From Pseudopyrenochaeta lycopersici (Eukaryota > Ascomycota > Dothideomycetes > Pleosporales > Pseudopyrenochaetaceae), in NCBI GenBank assembly GCA_003313425.1, contig NHZP01000021.1, positions 124,001-188,000 of the forward strand: a stretch of DNA of 64,000 bases, read 5' to 3'. The notes under the pieces were generated by a model. The model was given only the letters and a program-made list of their open reading frames with translations. It ran no database searches and was not told where the DNA came from. The translations under genes were made by a program, and so were the position numbers. Positions within the stretch are counted from its first letter, which is position 1, and each line of letters opens with the position of its first letter. This document shows, piece by piece, positions 2,222-59,909 of this stretch.

Positions 2222-2232
2222 GGTCTAATAGT

Positions 2233-2281
2233 GTAAGTGACCTTGAGATCGTCAGCCGTGACAAGATCTAATTCCGTGCAG
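2233..2281 (+). other. 49-nt GT-AG intron-like insertion in the tRNA D-arm
   Basis: It starts GTAAGT, carries CTAAT at 2268-2272 and ends GCAG at 2281. These are the same donor, branch and acceptor signals as the mRNA introns in this window. Exact removal restores the tRNA D-arm. The boundary is ambiguous by three bases because GTA occurs at both junctions, and only one of the possible placements gives GT-AG. Inside is a hairpin: 2246-2254 pairs with 2259-2269, a 9-bp stem with a two-base bulge and a GCCG loop. How it is removed, if at all, is not shown by the sequence. Confidence 0.75.
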
Positions 2282-2307
2282 GTAGTGGTTATCACTCCGG
2301 ATTTTGA

Positions 2308-2326
2308 TCAAACTTGTCGAAATCCT
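2308..2326 (+). other. canonical tRNA intron, 19 nt, position 37/38
   Basis: It lies one base 3' of the anticodon (after A37), the standard nuclear tRNA intron position. Removing it restores the seven-base anticodon loop and the 5-bp anticodon stem. Confidence 0.85.
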
Positions 2327-2364
2327 TTCCGGCAACCCCAGTTCGAATCTGGGTTAGACCTCTC

Positions 2365-2369
2365 TTTTT
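2365..2369 (+). terminator. Pol III T5 terminator
   Basis: A run of five T begins four bases after the tRNA discriminator base, as expected for RNA polymerase III termination. Confidence 0.8.
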
Positions 2370-2860: not shown

Positions 2861-4335
2861 TCAAAATGTTCCCTCGCCTGCTTGCTTTAATGCAAGCCAC
2901 AGGCCCCCAGCAGCCAGTACGCCCATCAAACCAACAGCAAACAATACCGCGGCGAAGGGAGTCAACGGGGGACGGATGTCTCTCCCTGCCATTGCATTGA
3001 TCTCTGATTCCAGTCTCTCGGCCATCTTCTCCTTGGAGAACTCCGCAATTACCCTCTCTTTGCCCCACTTGCCCATCTCCTGTAGCCTCTGCTCGCCATC
3101 CCCGTCTTCCAGAGCAATGCGCATGACCTCAGTCCAGTCTTGCACCTTGGTGACATCCCTCAGCCAGCCGGTCTGCCCGCTAATGACTGTCTCTGTAGGC
3201 CCACCCTCATTGGCTGCCAGGACTGGGGTGCCTGCCAGCATAGCCTCAAGCGGCACGATACCAAAGTGCTCGTGTAGCGGGGTGTAAACTAGAAGACGGG
3301 AAGTCGATAGTAGCGTAGCTTTGAAGGTGTTTGGGACAGAATGGAGGAAGAGGACGGAAATGTCGTCTGGTATGCTCTGGGCGGTGATGATATTTTGGGC
3401 GGTAGCATGCTTCAGCTCCAGCGAGTCTGCTAGGTCACACAGCTCAGTGTATGTATTCACGTTCTCTGCCACTCTGGAGTCGTATCCGCCTGCGACCACA
3501 AGCCGGGCATTTTTGCGCTCTACGGGCGATAGTCCTGCGTATGCCTTGATTGCCAATGCGACATCCTTCTTCTTCTCGAAGCGGTTTATGCTGAGAAGGA
3601 CCTTCTTATTCTTCCACAGCGGTGAGAGATGCTCAACGGACTCACTCACGCTGGTATCTACGCATGGGTACACGACGCCTGGCCGGCGATGCCTCAAGCC
3701 GGGGAAGGCCTCGCTGAAGACGCTTCTTGTGAAATTGCTGTTTACGACAATGGTATCGCTGCAGCCTGTGCTCCAGCTCTCCAGCCAGTCGAAAGGACGG
3801 CGGTACAGTGCCTTGAGAAGCCCCCCCTTCTTCGCGAGCAGCTTGTCCGGAAAGTGACAGTAGAAGATGACGCGCGGGCGGGGCTGCAGCAGCCTGAGGA
3901 GGGGTATGCCGGCGCTGAGCTGGTCGACGAAGAAGGATGAAGGCGCCAGCTCCTGGAGCTCGTCGGAGAATAGGGCAATCTGCAGGATCAGATGCACCTG
4001 GCGCAGGATGGCACACAAGATGGCGAAGCGGCCGCGGATGCTGGACGGGACAATGCTGTTTCCGCGCACTCGCACGTCGAGGGTTCCTTTGCGTCAGGGT
4101 CAGGACTCTCAGCTGCCTTATCTATGCATAAGCGGTGGGTGGTCGTCAGGTGTGGCCGAGGCTTACCATCGCGGGCCTCGTCGAAGCAGTGCTGCCGGTC
4201 GCGGTGCGAAGTGAAGACGGTCACCTTGTGCCCGCGACTCTGCAGCCCAACGGCAGCATCGATGACCAGGCGCTCCGCTCCGCCAATGCCCAGGTCGGGG
4301 TGGAAGAACACAATGCGCTGTTTCTTGCCCGTCAT
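2861..4335 (-). CDS. ALG2: ALG2 alpha-1,3/1,6-mannosyltransferase
   Basis: Adds the second and third mannoses to the dolichol-linked oligosaccharide on the cytosolic ER face, early in N-glycan synthesis. Two exons (4335-4167 and 4086-2861) are joined across an 80-nt intron (donor GTAAGC, acceptor AAG), giving 464 aa, close to the usual family length. The N-terminus carries the GT-B/GT4 glycine-rich motif ([13 protein letters not shown], about residues 11-23). The join reads [12 protein letters not shown], typical of ALG2. The family E-x7-E motif is present (EHFGIVPLE, about residues 329-337). A hydrophobic segment near residues 430-455 is a likely membrane anchor. It is divergent from VPS15, with 342 nt between start codons. 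Identification is from family knowledge of ALG2 and the motifs seen. Confidence 0.95.
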
Positions 4336-48707: not shown

Positions 48708-51011
48708 ATGGGAAAGTGTACGCAACCTCCTCCGCTGGGCCCCTCACCCCGCCACAGGCGTTGGATGCTGACGAAGCTTTGTGTGCAGGGAGATATGGTG
48801 TTGTCCTGGACGCTGGGTCCTCCGTATGTCTCTTGCACCTCGAGCAGGCAACAATCGCAAGGCTCGTAGCTAACCGCCTGAAAGGGGACGCGCGTTCATA
48901 TCTACCGATGGCTGAACAGCGAGAACGCGCGCAAACAAGCAAACGATGTTCAACTACACAGCTTACCCGTTATCGAGACAGATAAGAAGTGGACCAAGAA
49001 GATACACCCGGGTGCGTAGAGTACAAAAGGGCGAGAGGCGCAGGCTAATCTATGTCGCACAGGTATCTCAACTTTCGGTGACCACCCTCACGATGTCGGC
49101 CCCGGACACCTCGATAAGCTCCTCAGCCATGCGCTTAAGAAGATACCACTCGACGAAGTGCCAAACACGCCGCTCTTTCTGCTTGCGACAGCTGGGATGA
49201 GAATACTCCCACCGCTGCAACGGAAGGAAGTGCTCAAAGAAGTCTGCGAATTCGCACGGAGTACGACCAAATTCCAATTACCAGATTGCGATTTACACGT
49301 CCAGGTTATACCGGGCGAGACAGAAGGACTGTACGGCTGGATAGCGGCGAACTACTTAGTGGGTGGGTTCGACCAACCCAAAGATCACGATCATGGCAAA
49401 GGACACAACACTTACGGATTCTTGGATATGGGAGGTGCATCTGCGCAGATTGCCTTTGCACCGAATGCGACCGAAGCAGAGAAACACGCAAACGACTTGA
49501 CGCTCTTACGGTTGCGGACGATTGATGGAACACCGCTGGAATACAAGGTCTTCGTAACAACATGGCTTGGGTTTGGCGTCAATCAAGCGAGACAGCGATA
49601 CGTGAAAGCACTTTTGGATTCGAGTGCATCGAAGGAGCTACCAGATCCATGCTTGCCCGCGGATTTGAAAGTCGAGGTTACAAAAGACGGTAAATTCATT
49701 GATCCGGATTCAGATGACGAGGATGAGCCCAAGCCAAAGGCAGCAGCAAAGCTGGTTGGAACTGGCAAGTTCTCGGAATGTCTACATCAGACATATCCTT
49801 TGCTGGAGAAAGAGAAAGAGTGCACAGACGTCCCCTGTCTGATCAACGGACAACATGTGCCTGCCATCGATTTCGACGTCAACCACTTCGTAGGCGTTTC
49901 AGAATACTGGCATACAACACACGAGATCTTCGAGAAGGGACACAAAGACAAGGCTTACGACTTTAAGACCTACCAGGAGCGCGTACAGGAATTCTGCGGC
50001 CAGGATTGGAAGAGCATAGAAAAGGGCGTCAAAAAGGAGAAATGGGGAGGTAAAGTTGACGAAGAGAAGGCACGAGAAGTCTGCTTCAAGGCATCATGGA
50101 TCATCAACATGCTACATGACGGTATCGGGGTACCAAGAGTGGGAATCGAAGAACTCAAGGGCGACAAAAACACGACAAAGGCTGTGATTGACAACGCCAA
50201 AGCAAAAGGTTTCCTCGACCCCTTCCAAGCCGTGAACAAGATCAACGATGTAGAAGTCAGCTGGACGCTCGGCAAGATGGTCCTTTATGCCTCGAGCGAA
50301 GTGGCACTGCCCTCAGAGCAGGCACTCGCCGTAGGTTTTGGTTCCAACGTTCCCGGTATTCCATCGGACTTCCAGTATCCAGGCGGTACAACATTACCCT
50401 ACCAATCCGACAATGACTGGCACCGTCTGTTCGTGGAGAATCCACAGCGCATCCCTGGATTCCTTGTCATGATTGTCATTGTTGTTTTCATCTTCTGTGT
50501 CGCCCTAGGCAAGGAGCGTAGAGCCTCCGCCCGCAAGTCCCTGATCAACTTGCTCCCAAAAAAGCAAGGCAAAGACCCGCTCCATCGCCGCCGCGGCCGC
50601 AGCTTCCCCGCCAAACTTTTTGGTCTCGGATCCTCCACAAATCAGACTTACGAACGTGTCGACCTCGAGGATGGCGACGCGGCAAACGACTTTGAACTCG
50701 AAGAAACATATCTCGACTCCTCAGATAATGAGTTCTCTGATTCCTCAGACGGCTCGCGCCTCGGCAGGACATCTGGTTGGGCAACCCCTCAAATCAAGAC
50801 CGATGCAGCAGCCACCCCAGCTTATTTTAGTGGCGGAATTGCCAACGGCGGTGGTGATGTGCTCGCGCAGGGCTCGGCGCTTGGTTTAGGCCCACAGAGC
50901 GCATTTGATCGCACAGGCTTGATGAGTCGGACGGATAGCAGAGAGCGGATAAGAAGTCGGGCGAACAGCCCCAAGCGGGCAAAGGGCGGAATGAGGACGT
51001 TGGATGAATGA
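48708..51011 (+). CDS. YND1: Golgi apyrase YND1
   Basis: Golgi nucleoside di/triphosphatase of the GDA1/CD39 family. It clears GDP and UDP released by glycosyltransferases. Four exons (48708-48717, 48789-48823, 48885-49011, 49063-51011) give 706 aa. The first coding exon is only 10 nt and gives MGK plus one base of Trp. Reading MGKW-RYGVVLDAGSSGTR across two introns reproduces the family N-terminus. Apyrase conserved regions: DAGSSGTR (ACR1), ATAGMR (ACR2), GLYGWIAANYLVGG (ACR3), DMGGASAQIAF (ACR4). One TM segment lies near residues 522-543 (GFLVMIVIVVFIFCVAL). A basic then acidic Ser-rich cytosolic tail follows. Confidence 0.93.
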
Positions 51012-58484: not shown

Positions 58485-59537
58485 CTAGAGAGCAGCCCAT
58501 TCAATGGAAAATGCCCTCACGGGCTCCTTGCTCTCTCGTTTGGTGCTGAATAATCCCTCTCCTTTTCCCGCATCCTCATCCTCACCACCGATCATGTACG
58601 CTTTCTTCGTTCCCGTGCCCAGACGTCCTCCACCCACAACATCAAGAAGATCAAACTCTTGGTCCCAGCCCAACCCTGTTGCAGCGAAGTGACTGTGGTA
58701 CCGGAGAGGATCGCCAGGATAGACATTGTAGTGGCAGCCAAAGCGTAGACCAGGCATATGAAAGTAGCCTTTGGAGTGGAGGTGGCGGAACAGCGGGTAG
58801 CTGTTTGGTACAACAGGGAGTCCAAGCGAGGATTGCTCGGAGGGTGTCGGGAGTGGGGGGTGGGAGGTCGTGGGGGTGACAAAATGTTTCTGTACTGTAA
58901 CCGGCTTGGTCGTGCTGGTAGGAACAGACGGTGATGGGGAAGCGGTTGTAGAGTCCATGAGAATCGATTCCGTCACGGAATCACCGACCGTGGATTGTGT
59001 GGAGTCCGAAAACGTAGAACCTTTCATAATGAACCCGAGATCGAAGCTCGCACTGTTGGAATCATTCGTATGACGTGTCTCCGCTGTCGCCGTGCTCTCC
59101 GCGACACCTCTTTCCTCCTCTAGGGCCTCCTTCCTCAACCCCTTCTCCTTCAACGCTCTATCCTTTCTCCGCTCCGCCTTGTCCACCTGTTCCTTTGCGA
59201 CCTCTTCGCCCTTGCGATCCAGCTCCTGCAAGTATTTCAACCTTTCTTCGCGGCTCATGTCTCCAAAGCCTTTTCGATGTATTTCTACATCATCTACAAT
59301 ATATGCCGCCTTGTTCTCGACAAGAACCCGCGCCTCTTCAGGCATGAGCTCGAGAGGAATACCCAGGAAGACATTTTGCTGTGACAGGTTCGGAATTGTG
59401 CCGATCAGCACTCCGCAGATGTTATGTGCGCGTCGGCAGTGCGCAATGACGTCCACATCGAAGAGAAAGTAGCGGCCTGCAATGCAGGATATGGGAAAGG
59501 GTTCAGTGACTGGGTTTGGTGCCGAGGCTGGCGCCAT
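58485..59537 (-). CDS. SEN34: tRNA-splicing endonuclease subunit SEN34
   Basis: Catalytic subunit of the heterotetrameric SEN complex that cuts the 3' splice site of tRNA introns. A single exon gives 350 aa. The N-terminal domain has AGRYFLFDVDVIAHCRRAHNICGVLIG and NVFLGIPLELMPEEARVLVE, typical of Sen34. A charged, low-complexity linker (residues ~95-240) follows. The nuclease fold has YPLFRHLHSKGYFHMPGLRFG, then HYNVYPGDPLRYHSHFAAT (Tyr and His of the triad, His near residue 281) and GTGTKKAYMIGG (Lys near 310). ATG 59537 is the first in frame; the frame runs further upstream only to a TTG. It is tail-to-tail with TRM12 (101 nt apart). It is the enzyme expected to process the 37/38 intron of tRNA-Gln at 2.2 kb. 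Confidence 0.93.
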   Translation of the reverse strand: MAPASAPNPVTEPFPISCIAGRYFLFDVDVIAHCRRAHNICGVLIGTIPNLSQQNVFLGIPLELMPEEARVLVENKAAYIVDDVEIHRKGFGDMSREERLKYLQELDRKGEEVAKEQVDKAERRKDRALKEKGLRKEALEEERGVAESTATAETRHTNDSNSASFDLGFIMKGSTFSDSTQSTVGDSVTESILMDSTTASPSPSVPTSTTKPVTVQKHFVTPTTSHPPLPTPSEQSSLGLPVVPNSYPLFRHLHSKGYFHMPGLRFGCHYNVYPGDPLRYHSHFAATGLGWDQEFDLLDVVGGGRLGTGTKKAYMIGGEDEDAGKGEGLFSTKRESKEPVRAFSIEWAAL

Positions 59538-59909
59538 CTTCGTCGTCTGGAGCAATGAGCTGTTAGCCTTGCGCCGCGTATAACGTGAACAGAATAAGTC
59601 TGGAAGAGTAGAGTAAAATCATAGTGTGAATACAAATAGTTGAGTCATCAAGAGCCCCTCTTTGGGGGAGTCAGTGGATTGACAGATTATTTTATTAATC
59701 ATGTAACGATGCAGAATATGCAAAGAGAAAGAGAGAAATTACTGGCTTACCTTCACTTGTGTGGCATGATGGAAAACATCATGGGAGGAAAAAGAAAAGC
59801 TCAAGGTCGAGCTGCAGTTTTTTGTAGTGCCGCTTAGTCATGCGCGACCATCCCCGCCAAACGCGTCAATAAACAGCGAAACACTGGCAGGGCCACTGCA
59901 TTGTTCAAC
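59538..59909. promoter_or_regulatory. shared promoter region SEN34 / DAD1
   Basis: A 372-nt AT-rich gap between divergent starts. No gene is seen. Confidence 0.45.

Follow-up and report, generated by a model that had tools for sequence, protein, structure and literature searches.

Structure of the tRNA-Gln(UUG) gene

The window, by which we mean the whole 64-kb stretch of DNA that was analysed, contains on its forward strand a tRNA-Gln(UUG) gene (positions 2222–2361) that is interrupted twice. The parts of this gene and the other features of the window used below are:

2222..2232, plus strand: tRNA-Gln(UUG) exon 1, 11 nt; 5' strand of the acceptor stem and start of the D-stem, with 7/7 pairs to the 3' acceptor strand
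2233..2281, plus strand: GT-AG intron in the D-stem, 49 nt; GTAAGT, branch-like CTAAT, end GCAG
2282..2307, plus strand: tRNA exon 2, 26 nt; rest of the D-arm, 5' side of the anticodon arm, anticodon TTG and nucleotide 37
2308..2326, plus strand: canonical 37/38 intron, 19 nt, without GT..AG; called by aragorn on the GT-AG-spliced sequence
2327..2361, plus strand: tRNA exon 3, 35 nt; 3' side of the anticodon stem, variable loop, T-arm, 3' strand of the acceptor stem and discriminator T
2365..2369, plus strand: Pol III-type terminator TTTTT, starting four bases past the tRNA-Gln gene
4087..4166, minus strand: mRNA intron of ALG2, 80 nt; GTAAGC...CTGAC...AAAG; placed by protein homology
48716–48788, 48824–48884 and 49012–49062, plus strand: Golgi apyrase gene, three mRNA introns; placed by protein homology, the first being the least certain
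58485..59555, minus strand: Sen34 open reading frame, subunit of the tRNA splicing endonuclease; Pfam tRNA_int_endo, E 2.1e-13; best PDB sequence match Sen34, E 7.6e-22

The three exons (11, 26 and 35 nt) form a mature tRNA of 72 nt. The 49-nt insert is located after nucleotide 11 of this tRNA, with 10 nt between the second A of its CTAAT and its 3' end. The unspliced gene is called neither by aragorn nor, at the gathering score, by the Rfam tRNA model. When the 49 nt are removed, aragorn recognises a tRNA-Gln (ttg) whose 37/38 intron is 19 nt long, and after splicing all pairs of the acceptor stem (7/7) and T-stem (5/5) are formed. A compact fold of the 49-nt piece is not exceptional (z -0.88). 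The initial annotation, which had read the region as a 72-nt tRNA with these two inserts, proved exact. Four further Gln genes of the genome show the same kind of structure, four of the five having the D-arm insert at exactly one position, and the structure of the window gene is for this reason more than chance.

Introns of protein-coding genes were used as a yardstick for the insert. A scan of 154 kb for mRNA introns with strict signals gave 34 stretches against 19 in the reversed control; this was too weak a yardstick, and four introns in two genes of the window were therefore placed by homology. They are 51, 61, 73 and 80 nt long. All four contain CTRAY and three start with GTRNGY (GTGCGT, GTATGT and GTAAGC); the fourth, whose boundary is the least certain, starts with GTGTAC. 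Their 3' ends are CAG in two cases and AAG in two. The insert had been likened in signals and size to the shortest mRNA introns of the window: the signals do agree in kind, but its 49 nt lie slightly below the size of all four (51–80 nt). The open reading frame for Sen34, a catalytic subunit, shares the 64-kb window with the doubly interrupted tRNA-Gln gene; removal of 37/38 introns would be the task of the endonuclease that contains Sen34.

Interrupted tRNA genes in the genome

The assembly that was searched comprises 62.7 Mb in 188 contigs. For two proteins encoded in the window, the best matches bearing a name come from Clathrospora, Decorospora, Neocucurbitaria, Cucurbitaria, Alternaria and similar genera; the two species whose classification was looked up belong to the Pleosporales, and by its proteins the fungus is likely a member of this order. 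At least 15 nuclear tRNA genes, found with patterns for the T-arm, D-arm, anticodon arm and His, hold 20 GT-AG introns between them. This is a lower bound: the T-arm pattern showed 100 of its 119 matches, part of the listed matches was examined, and genes interrupted in the T-arm escape T-arm patterns. Counted by hand, and leaving out two tRNA-like loci described below, there are about 80 nuclear tRNA genes (36 Rfam matches, 29 others without a GT-AG intron and the 15 interrupted ones). The Rfam tRNA search, in which the 63 best candidates were scored, gave 61 matches, and all 15 interrupted genes are absent from them.

Five Gln genes were found, on C21 (the window gene), C6, C39, C4 and C1. 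Two more besides the window gene came from searching the whole genome with its sequence, a fourth from the D-arm pattern and a fifth from the T-arm pattern. In each of the five the D-arm is interrupted by a GT-AG intron, located after nucleotide 11 in the C21, C6, C39 and C4 genes and after nucleotide 18 in that of C1; in the C4 gene the T-loop is interrupted by another. No intron-free copy appeared among the Gln genes found; the initial annotation had proposed to count other TTG-Gln genes. With a 19-nt anticodon-arm pattern, allowing up to three mismatches, the five genes match without mismatch; this search could miss genes interrupted within the 19 nt or lying in an assembly gap. The sole match with two mismatches (C31:190028) is no tRNA by aragorn or by eye, and the 83 matches with three are at chance level, the control having given 179. 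The exact pattern has one match in the prokaryote collection, a bacterial record (Dictyobacter), and none in the viral collection. Three of the genes are Gln(CUG) genes, of which the one on C1 lacks the 11/12 intron of those on C6 and C39 and has one after nucleotide 18, which suggests loss of the 11/12 intron and an independent gain.

Both His genes found (C7 and C3) have a GT-AG intron at 11/12. The C3 gene, found with the His pattern, contains two, one after nucleotide 11 and one in the T-loop. The Asp gene on C5 is the most interrupted, having one intron at 37/38 and three of the GT-AG kind, and the Pro(AGG) gene on C15 has two GT-AG introns. Further interrupted genes are those for Leu(UAG) and Ile(AAU) on C7, Pro(CGG) on C12, Glu(UUC) on C19, Thr(UGU) on C10 and Tyr on C31. 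An intron at 37/38 is also present in each of the 14 interrupted genes scored with aragorn (the His gene on C3 was not among them). The premise of the initial annotation, that nuclear tRNA introns of fungi sit at 37/38, fails in this genome, where 20 GT-AG introns are located elsewhere.

Some loci stand apart from these counts. One tRNA-like locus (L108, G000:C7:283050-283750) has a good acceptor stem and T-arm and a long G+C-rich insert in the anticodon region (79 nt by aragorn), with no clear U33, and another (L084, G000:C71:158200-159100) may hold a GTAAGC...TAG insert roughly 70 nt in length. No tRNA-Phe gene was recognised by any search of the nuclear contigs; an interruption of its T-arm might hide such a gene from the patterns used. 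The 45-kb contig C107, which is probably mitochondrial, accounts for 25 of the 61 Rfam tRNA matches. A tRNA cluster is found on it at two places (about 9.9–11.5 kb and 42.5–44.1 kb) with identical spacing and scores, perhaps by duplication or circular overlap of the assembly.

Splice signals and positions

The 20 introns are 49–73 nt long, with a median of 53 nt. Their 5' sites all conform to GTRNGY (GTAAGT in ten, GTACGT in four, and GTGAGT, GTATGT and GTAAGC in two each) and their 3' ends to YAG (CAG in 16, TAG in four). CTRAY is present in 19 of the 20, with its A 10–12 nt from the end, the exception being the T-loop intron of the C4 Gln gene; in 2000 shuffles of the interiors the mean was 1.05 and the highest count 6. 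As a control from the same genome, none of 58 introns of the 37/38 type called by aragorn reads GT..AG, and these are 9–32 nt long, with the proviso that aragorn can misplace a boundary by one or two bases and that some isotype calls are wrong. The marks of U2-type introns are thus found in the 5' site, the branch motif and the 3' end, and exact removal restores the host gene.

Eighteen of the introns follow nucleotide 10, 11, 13, 15, 18, 22, 25, 30, 65 or 67 of the GT-AG-spliced sequence, in which the 37/38 intron is still counted, so that 65 and 67 correspond to the T-arm boundary and T-loop. They are spread over the D-arm, anticodon stem and T-arm, and none of the 20 is at 37/38, unlike the tRNA introns of eukaryotes that SEN removes at bulge-helix-bulge (BHB) structures. 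From these many positions we infer that the introns were gained independently many times.

Integrity of the predicted spliced tRNAs

With the GT-AG introns removed, all 14 genes scored are recognised as tRNAs by aragorn, two with the wrong isotype (Pro-CGG and Thr-UGU). Acceptor stem (7/7) and T-stem (5/5) are fully paired in all 14; the His gene on C3 was judged by eye. The Pro(AGG) gene on C15, once stripped of its two GT-AG introns, has the same mature sequence throughout as the intron-free genes on C7 and C49, from which it differs within the 37/38 intron alone. Partly compensatory stem changes distinguish the genes Ile C7, Tyr C31 and Asp C5 from their intron-free copies, the Asp gene differing elsewhere as well. 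Among the Gln genes, the acceptor stem exists in three versions (GGTCTAA/TTAGACC, GGTTTTG/CAAGACC and GGTTGTG/CACGACC). We read such paired variation in the stems as a mark of tRNAs under selection.

Transcription signals and other Pol III genes

A run of at least four T residues is located at +4 to +18 in all 14 scored interrupted genes, and these terminators point to Pol III. TATA[AT] is present within 60 nt upstream in ten of the 14, the window gene being one of the four that lack it. None of the 20 tRNA introns contains TTTT, at which Pol III might terminate (shuffle mean 3.3, P 0.02); for the first 18 introns the depletion has a P of 0.035 against shuffles and of 0.19 against the 34 strict-signal intron-like stretches, which are a weak yardstick. 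The A-box consensus is TRGYNNARNNG, and the 15 unspliced genes match 9–11 of its 11 positions, of which eight come free at 11/12: where the intron follows nucleotide 11, exonic TRGY and intronic GTAAGT together read TRGYGTAAGT. We hypothesise that this partial rebuilding of the A box by GTAAGT is the reason why 11/12 is used again and again in Gln, His and Pro(AGG) genes. The B box is split in the Gln gene on C4 and in the His gene on C3. Taken together, the T-runs, the TATA-like motifs of most genes and the A-box-like start suggest that the interrupted genes are probably transcribed by Pol III.

U6 is a Pol III gene, and two matches to it were found. The one on C19 (L080, G000:C19:199728-202822) contains a 52-nt intron (C19:201303-201354) reading GTTCGT..CTAAC..CAG, and when spliced it aligns with the intron-free U6 on C14. 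The 5' site of this intron, GTTCGT, is weak, and the intron contains TTTT. All 25 matches to 5S are full length and uninterrupted, and an interrupted 5S copy might not have scored; as judged from these matches, an effect is not clear for every class of Pol III gene.

Proposed removal of the introns

The best reading of these signals, in which we place high confidence, is that the 49-nt insert in the D-arm of the window gene is removed by the major (U2-type) spliceosome. The spliceosome would first take the D- and T-arm GT-AG introns out of the tRNA precursor, after which the SEN tRNA endonuclease would cut the 19-nt intron at 37/38; this order is proposed because D- and T-arm introns should prevent formation of the cloverleaf that SEN reads. 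On this reading, functional tRNA genes would have been colonised repeatedly by spliceosomal introns. The suggestion of the initial annotation that this tRNA may need both splicing machineries is favoured by the genome-wide comparison.

The D- and T-arm inserts could instead be ectopic introns of the SEN type, cut at BHB structures as in archaea and in the red alga Cyanidioschyzon merolae, and Sen34 is indeed encoded in the same window. Passages of two reports on C. merolae (PMC3978253, PMC9602550) describe tRNA introns of 11–69 bp, up to three per gene, in the D-, anticodon and T-arms, with BHB motifs. The resemblance extends, as far as these passages go, to introns in all three arms of one gene, broken A and B boxes, an upstream TATA-like motif and a downstream T-stretch. 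Even the order is the same as that proposed here: in C. merolae the anticodon intron is presumed to be excised later than those of the D- and T-arms (PMC9602550, in part). The C. merolae introns described there are, however, BHB introns cut by the tRNA endonuclease, while those of this fungus have GT, CTRAY and AG. The strict BHB form, as distinct from relaxed hBH/HBh' forms, was compared at the 18 junctions of the introns outside the His C3 gene: three show 3 of the 4 central-helix pairs, but none has the 4-bp central helix and the mean is 1.4 pairs of 4. Since GT..AG is found in 20 of 20 introns and CTRAY at a fixed distance in 19, against GT..AG in none of the 58 introns of the 37/38 type, cleavage of the GT-AG introns by SEN is highly improbable. 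A spliceosome acting on Pol II transcripts, made by read-through or from a dedicated promoter, would agree with the fact that spliceosomal splicing is normally coupled to Pol II, with the broken A and B boxes of many of these genes and with the upstream TATA-like motifs in ten of 14. The terminator-like T-runs kept close behind all 14 scored genes argue against it, as do the A-box positions retained by the unspliced genes (9–11 of 11, including the eight that come free at 11/12), the presence of an intron of the same kind in U6 and, weakly, the lack of TTTT in the introns; we consider it unlikely.

The origin of the inserts has also been thought of in terms of introner-like elements, mobile introns nearly identical to each other, which in this case would have landed in tRNA genes recently. 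Such elements were reportedly found in Dothideomycetes, the class of the host, by van der Burgt et al. in 2012. The introns of the C6 and C39 Gln genes are alike (0.83, with a shuffle maximum of 0.75), but these may simply be duplicated genes, and the pair of His introns is near the top of the shuffle range (0.73, maximum 0.75). The other four of the six same-site pairs compared lie within that range (0.58–0.68). The interior of the window intron is no more like those of the same-position introns of C4, C6 and C39 than shuffles are, and the whole-genome search with the window gene, which bears on this intron only, gave no second match to it. As far as this search and these six pairs go, introner-like insertion, which the initial annotation had listed as an alternative, is without support and appears very unlikely. 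The same annotation had allowed for a cleanly interrupted pseudogene, and intron-free copies do exist for Asp, Pro-AGG, Ile and Tyr, beside which the interrupted genes could be decaying, unused copies. Every Gln gene (five) and every His gene (two) that was found carries such introns, though. In the 14 scored genes the acceptor and T-stems and the T-run terminators are intact; stem variation is partly compensatory, and same-site interiors mostly diverge while the splice signals stay. We regard decay of the interrupted genes as extremely improbable.

Comparison with known systems

Spliceosomal introns are known from the U6 snRNA genes of some fungi, which like the tRNA introns described here are short GT-AG introns with a branch site in a Pol III gene. 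U6 is itself part of the spliceosome and has an external promoter; the hosts here differ in being tRNAs, whose internal promoters are cut by the introns. For spliceosomal introns in the rDNA of ascomycetes, Cubero et al. and Bhattacharya et al., both from 2000, are said to be the works cited. According to excerpts of a later report, such introns are established in ascomycete and lichen rDNA and are removed by the spliceosome; an intron of lichen origin was spliced out of a Pol I transcript in yeast (PMC8527467). These too are mRNA-type introns in non-coding ascomycete genes outside Pol II, but they concern rRNA and Pol I, while the genes of this study are tRNA genes, probably of Pol III, that also keep an intron of the SEN type. 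Canonical fungal 37/38 introns, present in 14 of 14 scored genes, differ from the GT-AG introns of the same genes in position, length and signals.

The paper on tRNAscan-SE 2.0 gives, in the part consulted here, a single intron as the limit for the tRNA genes of eukaryotes (PMC8450103). Among the titles and abstracts listed, in a search outside which most subscription papers and all preprints fall, no report of spliceosomal introns in nuclear tRNA genes was found, which is not proof of absence.

Implications

Nuclear tRNA introns are taught as being of one kind, located at 37/38 and cut by SEN. If the introns described here are spliced, the rule of one intron, at 37/38 and removed by SEN, fails in a fungus of the large order Pleosporales, and spliceosomes work routinely on very short, structured RNAs that are probably made by Pol III. 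Standard annotation would then miss essential tRNA genes, as the Rfam search did for all 15 when its 63 best candidates were scored. Some of the interrupted tRNA genes are the only ones found for their codons. It is probable, as far as genomic sequence can tell, that all decoding of Gln and His codons passes through the spliceosome, so that tRNA maturation would need two unrelated machineries in sequence and translation would be coupled to spliceosome capacity. The 5' splice site would double as part of the A box, and the genes would have been invaded repeatedly, by up to three introns per gene beside the SEN intron. Having intron-bearing and intron-free copies of one tRNA together, this genome would allow direct tests of intron gain and of the action of the spliceosome on transcripts not made by Pol II.
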